Shown here: one piece after another, positions 17,802-28,863 of the stretch
How the letters are laid out: each line of letters opens with the position of its first letter
Numbering within the stretch: position 1 is the stretch's first letter
DNA from: a virus
Reading direction: 5' to 3' (one strand)
DNA: 36,386 bases
Virus record (IMG/VR): IMGVR_UViG_3300024520_000241
Coordinates: 1 to 36,386 of that record
Translations under genes and position numbers: made by a program
The notes under the pieces: generated by a model
What the model saw: only the letters and a program-made list of their open reading frames with translations
What the model was told of the DNA's origin: nothing
Databases searched by the model: none

Positions 17802-18083
17802 ATGATGAATTATAACTCACTAACAGAAGCAGTTTACAGCGTAGCAAATCAAGAAAGCCTAGAAGGGTTCAAATTAATCACTGGTGTTAAATCTGATGAA
17901 TGGGCAGGTTTTCAGCAATGGATTAAGATTGGAAGAAAAGTTAAGAAAGGTGCTAAGGGAGCGCAAATTAAAATCGTAGTAACCAAGAAAATCAAAAACA
18001 AAGATGAGGAAGACGAGAAGAAAACAGTTTGTAAAAATCTTTATGTTTTTAATAAAGATATGACTGAAACAATCGAAAAGTAA
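17802..18083 (+). CDS. ArdC N-terminal-like antirestriction protein
   Basis: 93 residues. WAGFQQWIKIGRKVKKGAKG followed by a beta strand (QIKIVV) and NLYVFNKDMTE corresponds to the ssDNA-binding N-terminal domain of ArdC (DUF1738): the Trp...GRxVKKGxKG block is its signature. The metallopeptidase domain of full ArdC is absent, so this is the DNA-binding part alone. ArdC protects incoming DNA against restriction. Its neighbours, a DUF2958-like gene and a DNA methyltransferase, support an antirestriction unit. First gene behind P6. Confidence 0.65.
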   Translation: MMNYNSLTEAVYSVANQESLEGFKLITGVKSDEWAGFQQWIKIGRKVKKGAKGAQIKIVVTKKIKNKDEEDEKKTVCKNLYVFNKDMTETIEK

Positions 18084-18276: not shown

Positions 18277-18528
18277 ATGAAATATTATAACAACGAAACG
18301 AAACAAACTATTGATGTGATTGAGCATATTGTAACTCGCAATTTTTGGGAGTTTTACATCATAGAAAAATTAGATGATGATAGAGCTTTTGCTTTAGTTC
18401 ATGGACATGAAACTGAAATGGGATATGTGAGCATGAAAGAAATTAGCCCACATATAATTTCAAGAACAAGCGAACTAGAAGAATTGTTTCCGCCTATCGG
18501 ATGGGTTAAAAAAGAGGATGATAAATAA
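18277..18528 (+). CDS. DUF2958-like small protein
   Basis: 83 residues from the ATG after AAGGAAAATAAAG. The core FWEFYIIEKLDDDRAFALVH followed by ETEMGYVSMKEI resembles DUF2958, a small domain of unknown function often found beside ArdC-type antirestriction genes. The match rests on a few positions. Its position between the ArdC-like gene and the methyltransferase is consistent. Confidence 0.5.
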   Translation: MKYYNNETKQTIDVIEHIVTRNFWEFYIIEKLDDDRAFALVHGHETEMGYVSMKEISPHIISRTSELEELFPPIGWVKKEDDK

Positions 18529-18529
18529 A

Positions 18530-19924
18530 ATGTATAACGACACCGAGCAATTTTATCCGACTCCGAATTACTTAGCTTTGCGAATGGTAATGAAAATTAA
18601 AAGCAAGAAGCAACCTAGTTTAATTCTCGAACCATCGGCAGGTGATGGGCAAATTTTAAGAGCAGTTGATAAGCGTTGGAGTAGCAGGGCTACTCACTGG
18701 TTTGAGATAAATAAATCTAGACATGATGCACTTAGAAGACTTTCTCACTATGGCTATCAAGGAGAAGATTTTTTACAATCCGATATGACTGAAAAGTATG
18801 ATGCTGTAATTATGAACCCACCTTTCAATCGTGGTGAAGATCATATTTTAAGAGCTTATGAAGCACTGAAAAAAGGCGGTCAGCTTGTTTGTTTAATTTC
18901 ATCTGCAACACTGGATGGAAAGACTTTAAAAGAATCCAAGATAAATAAAATCTTAGAATTGGAAGAAGCAGAAGTTGAAGACCTTGAAGATGTTTTTTCA
19001 AGAAGCGAAGCAACACGCAAAACAGGCGTTCAATGTTCTTTGATAACTCTTACTAAGACTTATGGAGAAAGACAAGAATTTGATGCCTTAGGCGAAGGAT
19101 TAGAAGAGAATTTTAATCCGCTTGCAACTATTTCTCAGAATACAGAAGAAGCAAAAGTAAAAGTTTATAATTATATTGAAAGTTTGGTAGATCAATATAA
19201 TACGATGATTAAAGAATTTGATAAAGTTTGTATTTCCAGTGAAAAGCTTTTTAAGACTAAGCCAAGTTTTGTTTGCGAAAAAACTATGCCTACAATTCCT
19301 GCTACAATGGAATTTAAAAAGAATCTAACCAATGAGTTTTGGAAGAATGTTTTTAGGAAAACTGAAATGTCAGATTATATGACAACTACAGAACATGAAC
19401 GATTTATGGAAAGGCAAAATAGCCAAGCTGAAAAATCCTTTACTCAAGAAAATATTGCCAAGCTTATGATTGAGCTTATTGAATCCTCAAGCGAAATTAT
19501 TGAAAGATCTGTAAGGCATATTTTTAACTGCATCACTAGCAATCATTATTACTCAAATAAGTTTGAAGGATGGAAAACGAATAAGCATGACAAAGTTGAT
19601 AAGAAACTTATTATCCCGAATGTAGCTTGCTATAAATGGGGACAATCCTTTAACTACCATAAAGAGGAATACTTGGTAAATATCGAAAAAACTCTTTGCT
19701 TATTAATTGGAAAGAAGTTTAGAGATATAAGCATAAATCATAAATCAACAATTCAACATGCTTTGCACTATGCCGAAACTGGCGAGTGGCACGATTCTTA
19801 TTTCTTTAAATGTAAGATCTTCAAGAAAGGAACTGTTCACCTTACTTGGAAATCAGAAGAGTTAAGGCAGAAATTCAATCAAGTTGCCTGTAATGGCTCA
19901 AATAATATCGGAGGCGGTTTTTAA
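18530..19924 (+). CDS. DNA N6-adenine methyltransferase with DUF4942-like domain
   Basis: 464 residues from the ATG at 18530; an earlier in-frame ATG at 18518 is too close to AAAGAGG. The N-terminal domain has SAM motif I EPSAGDGQIL (34-43) followed by catalytic NPPF (96-99): the motif order of gamma-type N6-adenine methyltransferases. After ~170 a second, helical module ends with SYFFKCKIFKKGTVHLTWKS and a Gly-rich tail, the pattern of DUF4942 in phage and plasmid methyltransferases. No restriction enzyme is adjacent, so it is an orphan that likely marks phage DNA against host restriction. It completes the ArdC-like unit. Confidence 0.8.
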   Translation: MYNDTEQFYPTPNYLALRMVMKIKSKKQPSLILEPSAGDGQILRAVDKRWSSRATHWFEINKSRHDALRRLSHYGYQGEDFLQSDMTEKYDAVIMNPPFNRGEDHILRAYEALKKGGQLVCLISSATLDGKTLKESKINKILELEEAEVEDLEDVFSRSEATRKTGVQCSLITLTKTYGERQEFDALGEGLEENFNPLATISQNTEEAKVKVYNYIESLVDQYNTMIKEFDKVCISSEKLFKTKPSFVCEKTMPTIPATMEFKKNLTNEFWKNVFRKTEMSDYMTTTEHERFMERQNSQAEKSFTQENIAKLMIELIESSSEIIERSVRHIFNCITSNHYYSNKFEGWKTNKHDKVDKKLIIPNVACYKWGQSFNYHKEEYLVNIEKTLCLLIGKKFRDISINHKSTIQHALHYAETGEWHDSYFFKCKIFKKGTVHLTWKSEELRQKFNQVACNGSNNIGGGF

Positions 19925-23633: not shown

Positions 23634-24191
23634 ATGAAAACTAATAATGATGTTAAACAAATTCAGCTCGTTAAGATAGACGATCTTGTTCCTGCTGAGT
23701 ACAATCCTAGAAAGCTAAGTGATAAGCAAAAGGAAGATTTAAAAGCTTCTCTTGAAGAGTTTGGATTCGATATTCCCGTTGCAGTTAATCAGCACAAGGA
23801 TAGGAAAAATGTTATTATTGGAGGTCACCAAAGAGCCTTAGTTGCTAAAGAAATGGGTTATGAAGAAATCCCTGCAATCTTTTTTAATCTTAACCTTGAG
23901 CAAGAAAAGCAGTTCAATATCCGATTGAATAAAAATGGTGGCGAGTTCGATTTTGAAAAGCTCGATGAATTTTTTGATAAAGATAAACTTGTTGACTGGG
24001 GTTTTGAAGAGTGGGAACTTGACACTGAGTGGAATGAGCTAGATCCAGTTGAGGAAGCTGAAGAGCCGTCATTGGAAAAAGATGTAGTACTAAAAATATT
24101 GATTAAAAAAGAATATTCAGAAATTGAAGAAGAATTAAAATCTAAAATTCAAGATGTTTTAAAGGGTTACAATGGCGCTTCATTACAATAA
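23634..24191 (+). CDS. ParB-domain protein
   Basis: 185 residues. The N-terminal ~90 residues are a ParB/Srx-type domain: IDDLVPAEYNPRKLSD, SLEEFGFDIPVAV and IIGGHQRALVAKEMG (GGHQR at 63-67, the CTP/nucleotide-binding block of the fold). Such domains occur in plasmid partition proteins, nucleases and methyltransferase-linked phage proteins. The C-terminal part is acidic and helical. No Shine-Dalgarno is visible before the ATG, unlike neighbours. It overlaps the DpdA-like gene by 20 bases, so it belongs to the modification operon, as a regulator or accessory DNA-binding protein. Confidence 0.7.
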   Translation: MKTNNDVKQIQLVKIDDLVPAEYNPRKLSDKQKEDLKASLEEFGFDIPVAVNQHKDRKNVIIGGHQRALVAKEMGYEEIPAIFFNLNLEQEKQFNIRLNKNGGEFDFEKLDEFFDKDKLVDWGFEEWELDTEWNELDPVEEAEEPSLEKDVVLKILIKKEYSEIEEELKSKIQDVLKGYNGASLQ

Positions 24192-25077
24192 CATAGAAGT
24201 AAATGTTCTTGCATCTTATGAATACCTTAGAGGTAAGGGAATAAGAACAACTTTTGCTGATAATGTTTTTCAAGATCATAAGAATGGCAAAATAAACCTT
24301 ATGGTTGATAGTGGGGCGTTTTCTGTATTTCAAAACAATAAAGAAAGAATAAAAATAGAAGATTATAATGCTTTCTTAAAAAGCTATCATGAGGAATGTA
24401 ATAAATATGTCATGCTTGACGTTATTGGAGATCAAAAAGAAACAGAATTAAACTTTAAAAGAATGGTTAAAAACAATCTTAGACCAATGTTCGTAGCAAC
24501 AATGAAAGACAAGGATTTAAACCTTCTAAGCAGTTCTATGGAAGTAAATAGAGATATATGCGTTGCGGGTGGTTTTACATCTAAAGGAAATTGGCTTAAA
24601 AAAAGATTTCAAGACATATATAAAAAAACAAATAATCAAGCACAGATACACGGTTTAGCTTATGTAAATTTTAAAGACATATTTAGACTACCTTTAAAGA
24701 GTGTTGATTCTTCATCGTGGACGTCCGGTAAACGATATGGAACATTAAGCTATTTTATTGAAGGACATGGAGTAAAGAGCTGTCAAGCAGGAGAAATTCT
24801 AACTGGAAAAGGTCTTACACCTACGCTAAAAAAACTTTTTAATAAATACAAAGTTAAGCAAAAACACTTTAAAGGGCAATATATGACAGGTAATAAATCT
24901 GTTATCGTTTTCTTTTGCATCCTTTGTCATTATCAATATCAAGTCTATGCAAAAAAGCAGAAGCTAGATTATTTTTTAGCTATTGCTTCAAATGCTGATT
25001 ATCTAGGATACATGAAATTTATCGAGTTATATAAAAAAAATGAACTAAGCTATGAAAGTTGGAGAAACCAATGCTAA
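24172..25077 (+). CDS. dpdA: DpdA-like DNA 7-deazaguanine transglycosylase
   Basis: 301 residues, start after AAAGGG. It has the tRNA-guanine-transglycosylase-like barrel pattern of phage DpdA proteins: VDSGAFS (45-51, Asp46), LDVIGD (82-87, Asp83), VAGGF (131-135), HGLAY (160-164) and VDSSSW (178-183, Asp179). Bacterial DpdA replaces guanine in DNA with preQ0; phage homologues insert several 7-deazaguanines. The classical C-terminal zinc cysteine cluster of TGT is not evident, as in other short phage forms. QueE, QueD and FolE downstream supply the base. Identity is strong; the exact base inserted is not known. Confidence 0.85.
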   Translation: MALHYNNIEVNVLASYEYLRGKGIRTTFADNVFQDHKNGKINLMVDSGAFSVFQNNKERIKIEDYNAFLKSYHEECNKYVMLDVIGDQKETELNFKRMVKNNLRPMFVATMKDKDLNLLSSSMEVNRDICVAGGFTSKGNWLKKRFQDIYKKTNNQAQIHGLAYVNFKDIFRLPLKSVDSSSWTSGKRYGTLSYFIEGHGVKSCQAGEILTGKGLTPTLKKLFNKYKVKQKHFKGQYMTGNKSVIVFFCILCHYQYQVYAKKQKLDYFLAIASNADYLGYMKFIELYKKNELSYESWRNQC

Positions 25078-25475
25078 AGCTACCTAAGTGCAGTAAGTGG
25101 AATTTATGGGAAGGTAAAGAAATAGAGGGTAATACCGATCTTGGAACTAAAACCTTATTTGTTAGAGCAGGCAACTTTGAAAAGTATAAAAAAAAATTTT
25201 CTAGGATATGGTTCTGCAAAGAGTATAGGAATTTTGATAAGATAAGAAATGTAATAGATACTCACCAAGTCGCTCTAGAAGTAACATTGAATGACATTAG
25301 CGAAATTCCTAGTGATGTTTTTCAGCGTGTTAAAATATATTTAAAAGTTGATGCTACATTAAAAAACGGTGATGAAATTTGCATTGGTACTCCTTTTTAT
25401 GATGAAGCCTTTTTAATTGGAAGTGGTAACTCAGTACATGGAGAACAATATCAAAACGACAAGGAATTAAAATGA
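25071..25475 (+). CDS. Unknown protein of the modification operon
   Basis: 134 residues from the ATG at 25071, with GGAG seven bases upstream inside the DpdA gene; it overlaps that gene by seven bases. Features include LPKCSKWNLWEGKEIEG, KTLFVRAGNFEKYK, WFCKEYRNF and a closing GDEICIGTPFYDEAFLIG. No catalytic motif is recognised, and it has no membrane segment. Tight coupling between DpdA and the QueD-like gene suggests a role in DNA modification, such as a subunit or a tailoring enzyme. Confidence 0.65.
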   Translation: MLKLPKCSKWNLWEGKEIEGNTDLGTKTLFVRAGNFEKYKKKFSRIWFCKEYRNFDKIRNVIDTHQVALEVTLNDISEIPSDVFQRVKIYLKVDATLKNGDEICIGTPFYDEAFLIGSGNSVHGEQYQNDKELK

Positions 25476-25813
25476 AAAAAATTTACATATTAGTAAACTT
25501 ACAAGTGGAAGGGGTTCATAGTTGGAGTTCGTGTGATATAACTCAAGTTTCTTATTTAAAAAATATTCATCGGCACCAGTTTTATATCAGAGTCGAAAAA
25601 AGCGTGAGTCATACTGATAGAGATATTGAAATTATAAAATTTAAAAGAGAGATAAAACAATATTTAATCAATAAATACTGGTGTGAAAAATACCAAGCTT
25701 GCAATTTTGGCAATATGTCATGTGAAGATATTTGCATTGACATAGATAAACAATTTAAAACAAATCTAGTTAAAGTAACAGAAGATAATGAAAACGGAGC
25801 AATATTAAAATGA
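25472..25813 (+). CDS. Divergent QueD-like (T-fold) protein
   Basis: 113 residues. VEGVHSWSSC and NIHRHQFYIRV place His16, His33 and His35 in the spacing of the QueD/PTPS zinc ligands (FSAAH ... HGHNY), HTDRDIEIIKFKREIKQYL fits the VIDFsxlK helix, and NMSCEDICIDI fits the PTAEN motif. It is therefore likely a tunnelling-fold relative of QueD, but with SCED in place of PTAEN and no obvious catalytic Cys before HRH. It is separate from the true QueD at 27602. It may act on a pterin or 7-deazapurine. Coupled by ATGA on both ends. Confidence 0.6.
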   Translation: MKKIYILVNLQVEGVHSWSSCDITQVSYLKNIHRHQFYIRVEKSVSHTDRDIEIIKFKREIKQYLINKYWCEKYQACNFGNMSCEDICIDIDKQFKTNLVKVTEDNENGAILK

Positions 25814-26970
25814 TTTACTATTTTGGGTTAGAACCTTACGAGGAAAGATACACTTTACAACTTACTGAATGGTGCGAAAGAGCATTTAAAAGAAGAGGTG
25901 TTGATTATAAAATAATTAAAGGTAAAACCTTAGATAAAAGTAAAAAGATAAAAACTGGTCAAGTTCTTGATGCTCATGGAAGAACTTTTTTTGCTATGTC
26001 GCAAATTATGGAAATGATAGAAGTATTAAAAAATACCGAAACTGATAAAAACGATGTTCTTTATTTTGAGGATATGTTTCACGCAGGAATAGAGTCTTTG
26101 CCTTATATCTTCGATCAGATACCTACAGAGAATAGACCTAAAGTTTTCGTAAGATGTTTAGCTCAAGCTATAGACCCCGATGATTTTGTTTATAAATGTA
26201 AAATGAATAAATGGATGACAAAATTTGAACAAATGCTTAACGAGTTTGTTGATGGTATTTTATTATCAAATGAAGAAATGGCATCTTATGCTCATGTTGC
26301 AGGATGGAAAGCAAAGCTCTACAATATTAGTGGGCTAGCTTTTGATAAAAATGAAGTTCAATCAAGATGTAAAAATTTTAACAAACCTTTTAAACAAAGA
26401 AAGGCAAGAGTTGCTTTTACTTCTAGGTTTGATGAGGAAAAACAGCCTCACTTCTACATGGACTTAGCAGAATTATATAAAAACTTAGATATAGAATTTG
26501 CTATATTTTCGGGAAGTAAAATTAGAAGCAATAATAAATCAGTGCTAGAAAGATTAGATAAGCTTAGAAAAAATAATACAATAAAGGTATATGAAAACCT
26601 AAGTAAAAATGAATATTATGATTTACTAAGTGAAACAAGACTTGTCTTTAACTGCGCTCTTCAAGACTGGACTTCCAATACAGTAAGTGAAGCCGATGCG
26701 TTAGGGTGTAACGTCTTGTTTCCTGCATATAGAAGTTTTCCTGAAATATTTAATAACGACAGAAACCGAATGTATGTACCTTGGAGTATAGAAGATGCTA
26801 AAGAAAAACTTGAAATTTTAATAGCTAATCCCTCTAATAAAATCGGTCAAATTAGTAATTATACTCACACAACAAATGATAGAATTATAGATATTTTATT
26901 AGGTAAAGGTGAAAAGTACTGTAGGTCAAAAGTTAACTATAGAAATCATCTAATTGAGGAAAAGTATTAA
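25810..26970 (+). CDS. GT-B-type glycosyltransferase
   Basis: 386 residues. The C-terminal half has the nucleotide-sugar domain of GT4-like enzymes: RVAFTSRFDEEKQPHFYMDL (~200-219), FAIFSGSK, VYENLSKNEYYDLLSETRLVF and SEADALGCNVLF (293-304), with Glu294 in the position of the donor-binding Glu of E-x7-E-type glycosyltransferases. The N-terminal half is more divergent, as expected for the acceptor domain. It overlaps both the QueD-like gene and queE, so it is part of the modification operon. A modified base in DNA is the logical acceptor, by analogy with T4 glucosyltransferases on hydroxymethylcytosine; this is inference. Confidence 0.7.
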   Translation: MIYYFGLEPYEERYTLQLTEWCERAFKRRGVDYKIIKGKTLDKSKKIKTGQVLDAHGRTFFAMSQIMEMIEVLKNTETDKNDVLYFEDMFHAGIESLPYIFDQIPTENRPKVFVRCLAQAIDPDDFVYKCKMNKWMTKFEQMLNEFVDGILLSNEEMASYAHVAGWKAKLYNISGLAFDKNEVQSRCKNFNKPFKQRKARVAFTSRFDEEKQPHFYMDLAELYKNLDIEFAIFSGSKIRSNNKSVLERLDKLRKNNTIKVYENLSKNEYYDLLSETRLVFNCALQDWTSNTVSEADALGCNVLFPAYRSFPEIFNNDRNRMYVPWSIEDAKEKLEILIANPSNKIGQISNYTHTTNDRIIDILLGKGEKYCRSKVNYRNHLIEEKY

Positions 26971-27602
26971 TGTTGAAGGTTAAGGAAATATTCGGCACAA
27001 CTATTGAAGGCGAAGGATTATTTACGGGAACAAAAGCAATCTTTATTCGCTTGAGTGGGTGCAATATTTGGAATGGTAAAGCAGAAACAAAAGCTAAGTC
27101 AGCTTGTCCATATTGTGATACTGATTTTGTAGGTGGTAAAGAATTAACTGAAAGTCAAATACTGGATAAAGTTTTTGATTTAGATAAAGATAAAAATACT
27201 CCTTTAATAAATCTTACTGGTGGTGAGCCATTGCTCCAAGATATTGATAAGCTTTGCGGTATGCTTATTTCTTGTGGCTACAAAGTTAATATTGAAACCA
27301 ACGGAACTAAGCCTTTGTCGAGTAATTTAAAGGACTTAAAATCAAAAGGTTTGTTTGTTACTTGTTCGCCTAAAGTAAAGAATATTAAGCTAGATAAAAG
27401 TGATATTGATTGCCTAAAAGTTTTGTATCCTCATAACTCAGTAAAGCCCGAGGATTTTAAAGATGTGGCAGGTGTTAAGTATCTTCAACCAATAGAACTA
27501 AATGGCGTTATGGATTACGAAACGTGCATTAGAAAGCTTTATTCAATGTCAAGCGATTGGAAGCTAAGTGTTCAACTTCATAAAATAATAGGTGTAGAAT
27601 AA
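26970..27602 (+). CDS. queE: 7-carboxy-7-deazaguanine synthase QueE
   Basis: 210 residues. A radical SAM enzyme that turns 6-carboxytetrahydropterin into 7-carboxy-7-deazaguanine. The Fe-S cysteines Cys31, Cys46 and Cys49 have CX14CX2C spacing instead of the usual CX3CX2C, a variant known for some QueE proteins, and IEGEG near the N-terminus and TGGEP (83-87) are the other QueE signatures. Size is normal for the family. Start overlaps the glycosyltransferase stop by one base (TAATG) with GAGGA upstream; its own stop overlaps queD in the same way. Confidence 0.92.
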   Translation: MLKVKEIFGTTIEGEGLFTGTKAIFIRLSGCNIWNGKAETKAKSACPYCDTDFVGGKELTESQILDKVFDLDKDKNTPLINLTGGEPLLQDIDKLCGMLISCGYKVNIETNGTKPLSSNLKDLKSKGLFVTCSPKVKNIKLDKSDIDCLKVLYPHNSVKPEDFKDVAGVKYLQPIELNGVMDYETCIRKLYSMSSDWKLSVQLHKIIGVE

Positions 27603-28027
27603 TGGAAGCAGTAAGAAGACTTCAATTCTGTTGCGGTCACAGAGTATTAAATCACGAAAGTAAATGCGCTAATGCCCATGGTCATAATTATGTAATTTAT
27701 ATCCATGCAAAGCCTAAAAGCGGTCTTGATGCTATTGGTCGAGTTATTGACTTTTCAGTTATTAAAAAGATTGCAGGGGATTGGATTGATAAATACTGGG
27801 ATCATTCTTTTTTGATTAACGAAGCTGATTCTGATTTAGTTAATATTCAAAATGTACTCTCAAAAAATAAGCCATGCTTTATCTGCCCGTTTAATCCAAC
27901 GGCTGAAAATATGGCTGAGTATCTTTTAAGAATTGTATTTCCTAAATTGTTTATTAATGAAGATATTGAAATCTGTAAAATTGAATTATTTGAAACTGAA
28001 AATTGTAAGGTAGTGGTAGAAAAATGA
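27602..28027 (+). CDS. queD: 6-carboxy-tetrahydropterin synthase QueD
   Basis: 141 residues. It converts dihydroneopterin triphosphate to 6-carboxy-5,6,7,8-tetrahydropterin. Zinc ligands His13, His26 and His28 (CCGHR, AHGHNY), the catalytic Cys22, [14 protein letters not shown] and PTAEN are all present. Full length for the family. Coupled to queE and to the folE fusion by overlapping codons. Confidence 0.92.
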
Positions 28028-28863
28028 AAAGATATACTTGGAAAGAAATTGAAACTTTAATCGTTCAAGCTTGGGGCGGGAAGCCAGTTTTAAAAGTATG
28101 GGGAGTTCCTAGAGGCGGTATTCATGTTGCTCAAATCTTGGAGAAATATTCCTTAGCAGAAATGGTTGATGAGTTGCAGGATTGCGAACTCGTTGTGGAT
28201 GATCTTATTGATAGCGGAAGAACTAAAGATAAGTATAAAGATTTAGGTTTTAATTTTTGGTGTCCAATTGAAAAAAGCGATACTGATTGGATTGAGTTTC
28301 CTTGGGAACAGGAAATGGATATTGACCATGAAGATATTATTACCCGTTACATTGAAGCAATTGGCGATGATCCTAAACGTGCAGGAGTTCTTGAAACACC
28401 TAAGCGAGTAGTGAAGTCATGGAAAGAAATTTATGGCGGTTATAAAGAAAATGCAGGAACTCACCTTTCTAAATGTTTTGATTCAGATTCAGATGAAATG
28501 GTTATTTGTAAAGATATTGAATTTTATTCTACCTGTGAACATCACATGATTCCAATTATGGGGAAAGCTCATATAGCTTATATACCCGATGGAAAAGTTG
28601 TTGGCTTATCCAAGCTTGCAAGAACAGTGGAAGTATACGCTAGAAGGCTTCAAATACAGGAACAATTAACTTGTCAGATTGCTGATGCACTAGAAGAACA
28701 TATTCCGAACATAAAAGGTTGTGCAGTAGTTATTGAAGCAAAGCATTTCTGTATGTGTTCAAGAGGCGCAAACAAGCAGAACTCAAGCATGGTTACAAGT
28801 GCTTTAAAAGGGTGCTTTAGAGAAACAGATGTAAGAACTGAGTTCTTTAATCTTATTAGATAA
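28024..28863 (+). CDS. folE: Phosphoribosyltransferase-like / GTP cyclohydrolase I fusion
   Basis: 279 residues. Residues ~1-90 look like a short type I phosphoribosyltransferase domain: [15 protein letters not shown] and [11 protein letters not shown] (57-67), the PRPP loop with two Asp. Residues ~100-279 are GTP cyclohydrolase I (FolE): CEHH with Cys171 and His174, HFCMCSRG with Cys243, and a RLQIQEQLT helix, all zinc and substrate residues. FolE opens GTP to dihydroneopterin triphosphate, the first step toward 7-deazaguanine. The PRT part is shorter than stand-alone enzymes, so it may be reduced or act as a binding domain. It could recycle guanine released by DpdA to GMP; this is inference. 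Confidence 0.88.

Follow-up and report, generated by a model that had tools for sequence, protein, structure and literature searches.

A putative queC-free phage cassette for glycosylated 7-deazaguanine in DNA

Phages 9g, CAjan, nt-1 and Dp-1 carry DpdA-based 7-deazaguanine modifications in their DNA (Hutinet et al. 2019, PMC6884629). The window analysed here, a viral stretch of 36,386 nucleotides (IMG/VR record IMGVR_UViG_3300024520_000241), resembles these phages in combining the synthesis genes FolE, QueD and QueE with DpdA. Unlike these QueC carriers, it has no QueC and contains orf138, orf113 and a glycosyltransferase (GT) gene. For the queC-less Mycobacterium phage Bipper (KU728633), 7-carboxy-7-deazaguanine (CDG) in DNA has already been suggested (Hutinet et al. 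2019, PMC6884629). Like the window, Bipper keeps ParB-like, DpdA, QueD, QueE and FolE genes beside the terminase and lacks QueC, but it shows no match to the orf113 or GT families, and a 141-aa gene without a family match lies between its dpdA and queD. Clusters of the Cellulophaga phiST type share with the window a DpdA-like protein, FolE, QueD, QueE and an orf113 homologue (38% identity), again without QueC; they differ in having no GT-family gene and a DpdA of a different type. Cui et al. (2023) reportedly found the bases dCDG and dDG in phage DNA and predicted a CDG decarboxylase, DpdL, said to be linked, like these bases, to phiST-type clusters.

If our reading is right, the locus would also resemble T4 alpha-glucosyltransferase, likewise a GT-B enzyme of a phage that adds sugar to a modified DNA base, although the T4 base is hydroxymethylcytosine rather than a 7-deazaguanine and the two enzymes have no close sequence relation. 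A sugar on a 7-deazaguanine nucleoside, as proposed here, occurs in the mannosyl- and galactosyl-queuosine made by QTMAN and QTGAL in animal tRNA (PMC12518689); there, however, it sits on the cyclopentene diol of queuosine, a ring that the cassette genes cannot make. In the literature that we searched, whose coverage was limited, we found no report of glycosylated 7-deazaguanine in DNA. To our knowledge, all 7-deazaguanine bases of phage DNA carry small side groups.

Operon layout and synthesis genes

The genes ParB, DpdA, orf138, orf113, GT, QueE, QueD and FolE form, in this order, one overlapping chain on the plus strand (23634–28863), with intergenic gaps of -20, -7, -4, -4, -1, -1 and -4 nt, and the terminase lies immediately downstream. 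The initial annotation had read DpdA, QueE, QueD and FolE as members of one such chain, and family profiles do match all four where it had placed them. The ParB-like protein (23634–24191; ParB_N domain, PF02195, 2.2e-9) shares a 20-nt overlap with dpdA. A ParB-like gene adjoins phrog_887-type DpdA, or lies at most one gene away from it, in Sonali, Bipper, Roos and the small contig L090, and the protein is a possible partner of DpdA. DpdA itself (24172–25077) belongs to the small phrog_887 type of DNA-guanine transglycosylases (4.1e-21). It is TGT-like and has the two conserved Asp motifs of the family, Asp46 in DSGAF and Asp179 in VDSSSW, both of which align with other phage DpdA proteins; the CxCxxC zinc motif was not found in it, and a search against PDB sequences gave no significant match.

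The synthesis genes overlap one another beside dpdA (26970–28863), as in other DpdA clusters. QueE, the 7-carboxy-7-deazaguanine synthase (26970–27602), matches phrog_2076 (1.4e-29) and TIGR04508 (queE_Cx14CxxC; 6.6e-40, under that model's curated cut-off), and its cysteines 31, 46 and 49 form the CX14CX2C cluster motif. In QueD, the 6-carboxytetrahydropterin synthase (27602–28027; PF01242, 2.4e-26; phrog_2389, 4.3e-36), all of the canonical residues H13, C22, H26, H28, D67, H68 and E131 are intact. The last protein ends in the GTP cyclohydrolase I domain of FolE (28324–28863; PF01227, 2.4e-68, residues 105–279). Its N-terminus (28024–28323) looks like a shrunken type-I phosphoribosyltransferase (PRT) domain, XGPRT-like, with a profile E of only 0.006; a motif region of 16 residues and the motif W-EFPWE align with PRT genes that stand alone within such clusters, among other loci in those of BUCT-ZZ01 and PA5oct. 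Neither this PRT-like N-terminus nor the ParB-like gene was in the initial annotation, which also lacked the QueD-like fold at 25472 and the glycosyltransferase at 25810.

The GC content of the cassette (31.9%) gives no sign of a recent foreign insertion when compared with that of the whole record (32.0%). Close relatives of the window DpdA, orf138 and terminase were not found in viral_contigs; thus, that collection contains no phage closely related to this one. Since most tail genes are missing from the record, it looks incomplete, and queC may lie elsewhere in the phage genome.

The genes in the place of QueC

No match to QueC was obtained when the record was searched with PF06508, which detected 12 of the 14 control genomes, and none of the six frames of the window contains the PP-loop motif SGG-x-D-S. 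Both searches agree with the initial annotation, which had seen no PP-loop QueC gene here; the record, possibly incomplete, thus lacks the genomic queC that marks the preQ0-type subgroup. The same annotation had left the genes at 25071, 25472 and 25810 unexplained. This still holds for orf138, while the other two can now be assigned to a QueD-like fold and to a GT4-type glycosyltransferase.

The product of orf113 (25472–25813; phrog_17812, 5.3e-21) is a QueD/PTPS-like T-fold protein according to its predicted structure (AF2 pLDDT 88). The top Foldseek match of the model was E. coli QueD (8.6e-6; VIA Z 11.6), and profile–profile comparison with phage QueD gave 1.5e-5, while its profile had no significant match among PDB sequences. 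Together with the T-fold, the three zinc histidines of QueD (H16, H33 and H35) are kept and invariant. However, Leu29 replaces the catalytic Cys before HxH and the Asp-His pair is absent, so that we do not class the protein as QueD. Judged by sequence and model, orf113 is a zinc-keeping QueD paralogue that retains the fold and has lost the QueD catalytic residues. Gp4 of Bipper was also considered as a distant orf113, which found no support (hhalign probability 0.3).

Across the records examined, orf113 and QueC appear to be mutually exclusive. Full-length QueC was found in 0 of 13 records with orf113, and orf113 in 0 of the 5 QueC-positive DpdA phages tested; likewise, the orf113-bearing records searched, 9 complete isolates and 12 large contigs, yielded no QueC above the cut-off. 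The sole blemish on this pattern is a QueC-profile match in phage D479 (32.8 bits over only 69 positions), which we treat as another PP-loop protein rather than QueC. A PAPS-reductase-like gene beside folE in X1 was rejected as a QueC candidate, because PF06508 matched X1 weakly and elsewhere in the genome. The operon of Sonali, ParB-DpdA-QueC-QueD-QueE-FolE, equals that of the window with QueC replacing orf138-orf113-GT.

For orf138 (25071–25475; 134–138 aa), the only match was to the profile of a family that we call cl7 (E 5.7e-4 to 1.2e-3), which occupies the same place between DpdA and orf113 in related clusters. The match covers 26 residues of an N-terminal motif; for this reason, we reject certain membership and regard orf138 as possibly a diverged member of the family on sequence and gene order. 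The cl7 profile had no significant match to PDB sequences.

The gene at 25810–26970 encodes, as far as sequence and predicted fold (AF2 pLDDT 80) tell, a retaining GT4-type glycosyltransferase (PF00534, 1.9e-7). The model has the GT-B fold and aligns with GT4 enzymes over about 300 residues at VIA Z scores of about 19–23 (best 22.8); the C-terminal donor site combines R206 and K211 with the conserved E294, all three invariant across 26 homologues. T4 alpha-glucosyltransferase (1ya6) was among the Foldseek matches (4e-8), although many other GT4 enzymes match too. No significant match to PDB sequences was found with the GT profile. Since the fold is generic, it does not reveal acceptor or donor; sugar transfer onto a DNA base is what we infer from the linkage of the gene to DpdA and orf113.

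Recurrence of the module in other phages

GT relatives were found in no fewer than 599 viral stretches. We sampled 38 viral loci with full flanks, chosen by GT sequence alone and coming mostly from related phages: a DpdA-type gene and orf113 were present in all 38, FolE in 36 and a nucleotide-sugar epimerase-like gene in 31. DpdA, orf113 and GT without queC were found in phages BUCT-ZZ01, PA5oct, ACP17, X1 and Phosso, and L090 repeats the window arrangement beside its own terminase. These six contexts include at least three DpdA types, where the 518-aa and 416–437-aa proteins were called DpdA from motifs, the annotation of one record and weak profile matches; the profile of the 518-aa type had no significant match to PDB sequences. 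In the window, L090, ACP17, X1 and PA5oct, the GT gene either separates DpdA from orf113 or lies next to them.

The GT family is missing from phages phiST, MA9V-3 and Roos, although all three encode orf113 and DpdA, which indicates that the GT is an add-on. In the phylogenetic trees, the window GT grouped with a clade of BUCT-ZZ01 and contigs (split support 1.0), whereas the window orf113 grouped with L090 (0.995). Such incongruence indicates that GTs move between orf113-bearing cassettes.

A proposed pathway and its alternatives

We propose, with a probability of roughly 55%, that the cassette makes a 7-deazaguanine other than preQ0, which is placed in the phage DNA and finally glycosylated there. 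FolE, QueD and QueE, as intact family members, should convert GTP to CDG, where the encoded pathway stops because QueC is missing; on this point, and in seeing the extra genes as making the difference, the initial annotation is supported. Protein orf113 would then replace QueC, with CDG or the already inserted base as its substrate, as its fold, its residues and the QueC exclusion suggest; our first guess for its chemistry is decarboxylation. DpdA, by analogy with its family, would exchange guanine in DNA for the modified base, perhaps aided by the ParB-like protein. With a nucleotide-sugar as donor, the GT would glycosylate the base, most probably once it is in the DNA, a step we include because of its 38/38 linkage with DpdA and orf113 over several DpdA types. 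This step meets a difficulty, in that neither CDG nor 7-deazaguanine has an ordinary hydroxyl for an O-glycoside; an ester on the carboxylate or an N- or C-glycoside would be needed, unless orf138 or the host adds a group to which the sugar could be joined. It is also conceivable, if speculative, that the PRT-like domain salvages the guanine released by DpdA. The likely purpose of the base would be protection from restriction enzymes, as in other DpdA phages.

The initial annotation had left the choice between the carboxy base and a product of the extra genes. We favour the latter, since a QueD-fold orf113 and a GT that travel with DpdA make plain CDG an improbable end product. Still, the DNA might carry plain CDG or a 7-deazaguanine made by orf113, and the GT might act elsewhere, for example on another base or a molecule of the host; phiST and MA9V-3 do combine orf113, a DpdA-like gene, FolE, QueD and QueE without a GT, and the reported dCDG and dDG and the predicted DpdL point the same way. 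We regard this as unlikely, given that DpdA and orf113 are kept in every GT-selected locus and that the GT gene stands so close to both; moreover, a thymidylate-synthase-like motif, which could point to a hydroxymethyl-pyrimidine, was not found in the window. Ordinary dPreQ0, with orf113 and GT peripheral, is less probable again. Hosts such as E. coli encode QueC, the apparently incomplete record might miss the gene, and a phage DpdA expressed in E. coli does insert preQ0 (PMC6884629), yet the lack of any QueC above the cut-off in the isolates and large contigs with orf113, and the placement of QueC in Sonali at the very position that orf138-orf113-GT take up in the window, speak against it. 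The mutual exclusion thus argues against preQ0 from host QueC, which the initial annotation had allowed for, as the main route.

Two further alternatives move the sugar away from a base in DNA. Tetrahydrobiopterin glucosyltransferases glycosylate a pterin, and two of them match the GT model well (9v0l, Z 20.8; 5zes, Z 20.3); as orf113 keeps a pterin-enzyme fold, the GT could glycosylate a pterin or a free base derived from FolE and the QueD-like protein; the outcome would be a small molecule, or a base that already carries its sugar, instead of a DNA mark added after insertion. However, these Z-scores are tied with those of many other GT4 enzymes, a pterin glycoside would need neither DpdA, which is always present, nor QueE, which often is, and the DpdA pocket would need room for a base with a bulky sugar already attached, all of which leaves this reading quite improbable. 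Least credible of all is an RNA target, with the TGT-like protein and the GT equipping tRNA with a sugar-bearing 7-deazaguanosine, much as in mannosyl- and galactosyl-queuosine. Such nucleosides are known in tRNA (PMC12518689) and a GT4-type fold is compatible with them, but the window protein belongs with phage DpdA and lacks the zinc motif, characterised phage DpdA proteins act on DNA (PMC6884629), and the gene chain leads straight into the terminase genes.

Overall, if glycosylated 7-deazaguanine is indeed the product, deazaguanine exchange and glucosylation, two known shields of DNA, would be united in one base, and guanine would be covered where T4-type glucosylation covers cytosine. More tentatively, a wide class of phages, from small siphovirus-like ones to jumbo phages such as PA5oct and Phosso, might have such DNA; in them, orf113 would draw CDG into another route, DpdA would insert the resulting base and a GT4 enzyme would attach the sugar, in many relatives with a dedicated nucleotide-sugar supply. 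Our results suggest a queC-free branch of the 7-deazaguanine pathway and a function for the frequent but unannotated family orf113 (phrog_17812). As the module is common and occurs in growable isolates, the base is open to direct search.

The operon and its synthesis enzymes

Neighbouring genes at 23634-28863 in the window all overlap, by 1 to 20 nt, and 10 nt after this chain start the terminase genes, small then large. Besides a ParB-like gene (23634-24191; PF02195), the chain encodes DpdA (phrog_887, 4e-21), QueE, QueD (PF01242, 2.4e-26) and FolE (PF01227, 2.4e-68), just as the initial annotation had described, and its remark that a PP-loop QueC gene is missing was borne out too: QueC is absent from the 36,386-base record, with the PP-loop motif in no frame. 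Three further genes had been left unexplained. One of them, orf138 (25071-25475), still has no matches in family assignment, whereas orf113 (25472-25813; phrog_17812, a family of unknown function) has a predicted QueD fold and the gene at 25810-26970 (PF00534, 1.9e-7) encodes a GT4-type glycosyltransferase (GT). GC content is equal in the cassette (31.9%) and the whole record (32.0%). The record looks incomplete, because most tail genes are missing.

Their motifs mark FolE, QueD, QueE and DpdA as intact. Both aspartate motifs of DpdA are present (D46 in DSGAF, D179 in VDSSSW) and align across phage DpdA proteins. The CX14CX2C cluster motif is found in QueE and the CEHH segment in FolE, while QueD retains the histidines for zinc, the catalytic cysteine and the Asp-His pair. 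According to the established pathway, FolE, QueD and QueE would together make 7-carboxy-7-deazaguanine (CDG).

The N-terminus of FolE (28024-28323) is fused to a shrunken XGPRT-like phosphoribosyltransferase domain of ~100 residues. Its ten-residue PRPP loop, GVPRGG loop and terminal W-EFPWE are retained, but part of the core found in stand-alone versions is missing. Stand-alone phosphoribosyltransferase genes occur in 18 of 82 GT loci, including the clusters of BUCT-ZZ01 and PA5oct, and IMPDH/GMP-reductase-like genes likewise occur in related clusters; these neighbours suggest that guanine set free by DpdA is recycled, and its salvage would be a natural role for the fused domain.

In all five phages examined, a ParB_N-like gene lies beside a phrog_887-type dpdA or at most one gene away (window 23634-24191; Sonali, L100 5414-6007; Bipper, L099 202-861; Roos, L085 8294-8995; a small contig, L090 9119-9754), and its product may assist DpdA in targeting or in contacting DNA. 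Elsewhere in the window, a short protein (17802-18083) resembles the anti-restriction factor ArdC over the N-terminal domain alone (PF08401, 3.9e-9), and a DUF4942 protein (18518-19924) whose N-terminal part is methyltransferase-like (PF05175, an NPPF motif and a weak match to Dam) is a possible second DNA modification gene product.

orf113 as a candidate replacement for QueC

Among 19 records, picked by homology and not at random, orf113 was found in 13; neither Bipper nor any of five QueC-positive DpdA phages (Sonali, 9g, CAjan, nt-1 and Dp-1) has it. QueC exceeded the cut-off in none of the 13 orf113 records, except for a 69-position match in D479. In the Sonali operon (ParB-DpdA-QueC-QueD-QueE-FolE), QueC stands where the window has orf138-orf113-GT, the operon being otherwise the same. 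This distribution and the Sonali operon make the strongest case for orf113 acting on CDG in QueC's place, and we consider such a replacement probable.

The structure model of orf113 (40 sequences, pLDDT 88) has E. coli QueD structures as its top Foldseek matches (8.6e-6) and aligns with QueD over 104 residues at 2.6 A (VIA-align, Z 11.6); profile-profile comparison with phage QueD gave 1.5e-5, against 0.43 for the control. The alignment shows no variation at H16, H33 and H35 or, towards the C-terminus, at E104/E107; an invariant leucine occupies the position of the QueD cysteine, and the Asp-His pair is lost. Since the structural match and the histidines are kept while the cysteine and the Asp-His pair are not, orf113 is predicted to share QueD's fold and metal site, not its catalysis.

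Homologues of orf113 carry an extra N-terminal part resembling an HNH homing endonuclease in MA9V-3 (L086 8452-9333) and an unknown one in Bakedbeans (L088 8224-9375), and a homing endonuclease gene adjoins orf113 in D479 (L097 7268-7945). The queC-less operon of Bipper has gp4 (L099 2047-2472, 141 aa) between dpdA and queD; this protein matches no family, and profile comparison did not support it as an orf113 homologue.

The glycosyltransferase and the recurrence of the module

Modelling (pLDDT 80) and sequence both identify the product of the gene at 25810 as a GT-B, GT4-type enzyme, with Z of ~19-23 (VIA) to many GT4 enzymes, tetrahydrobiopterin glucosyltransferases among them. T4 alpha-glucosyltransferase is among the Foldseek matches, and the donor site keeps R206, K211 and E294 without exception.

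At least 599 stretches, scanned by GT alone, encode a relative. In the 38 of the best 80 that have >7.5 kb on each side, a DpdA-type gene and orf113 are present in 38/38, FolE in 36, a nucleotide-sugar epimerase-like gene in 31, the cl7 family (between DpdA and orf113) in 30 and, counted within the stretch, QueE in 20 and QueD in 17. The common order, DpdA-cl7-orf113-GT-(epimerase)-FolE, agrees with DpdA-orf138-orf113-GT in the window. As loci selected by GT are related to one another, stronger evidence comes from different phages: the module occurs in BUCT-ZZ01, PA5oct, ACP17, X1 and Phosso, the last having its DpdA-type gene elsewhere in the genome. In the small contig L090, QueD-QueE-FolE-orf113-GT-DpdA-ParB adjoins the terminase, as in the window. 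The GT and orf113 trees place the window differently, which shows that GT has passed between cassettes sharing orf113; phiST, MA9V-3 and Roos have orf113 and a DpdA-like gene with no GT-family gene.

Nucleotide-sugar genes (epimerase, DegT aminotransferase-like, cytidylyltransferase-like and UDP-sugar dehydrogenase-like) adjoin GT in many of loci L002-L081, as if the sugar were a dedicated, possibly amino-substituted one. The BUCT-ZZ01 cluster holds a second GT4-type gene (L001 8991-10334, 447 aa), whose product could lengthen or vary the sugar.

A proposed modification route

At the level of sequence, the operon holds a predicted QueD-fold protein and a GT4 enzyme beside intact FolE, QueD, QueE and DpdA, has no QueC, and recurs. 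We propose, with a probability of about 0.8, that a 7-deazaguanine-type base enters DNA by a queC-free route. The operon enzymes would synthesize CDG, orf113 would then process it (decarboxylation being a first guess), and DpdA would insert the base into DNA, where GT would glycosylate it. That GT acts on this base we favour only slightly. The sugar bond is the weakest step, because CDG and 7-deazaguanine both lack a free side-chain hydroxyl; the linkage could be an acyl ester or an N- or C-glycoside, or could run through a group added by orf138.

The carboxy- and plain 7-deazaguanine deoxynucleosides (dCDG and dDG) were reportedly found by Cui et al. in 2023, who are also said to have predicted a decarboxylase, DpdL. 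To our knowledge, a sugared 7-deazaguanine is established nowhere but in tRNA queuosine (PMC12518689). The literature searched contained no report of glycosylated 7-deazaguanine in DNA, and a review of jumbo phages from 2026 goes no further than predicted incorporation of deazaguanine. The initial suggestion of CDG in DNA has a precedent, since Hutinet et al. 2019 (PMC6884629), describing DpdA phages, proposed that queC-less Bipper might carry it. Compared with DpdA phage clusters, the window cassette is a variant of the same kind, without QueC and with orf113 and a GT4 enzyme, and the outcome of its activity would be protection from restriction.
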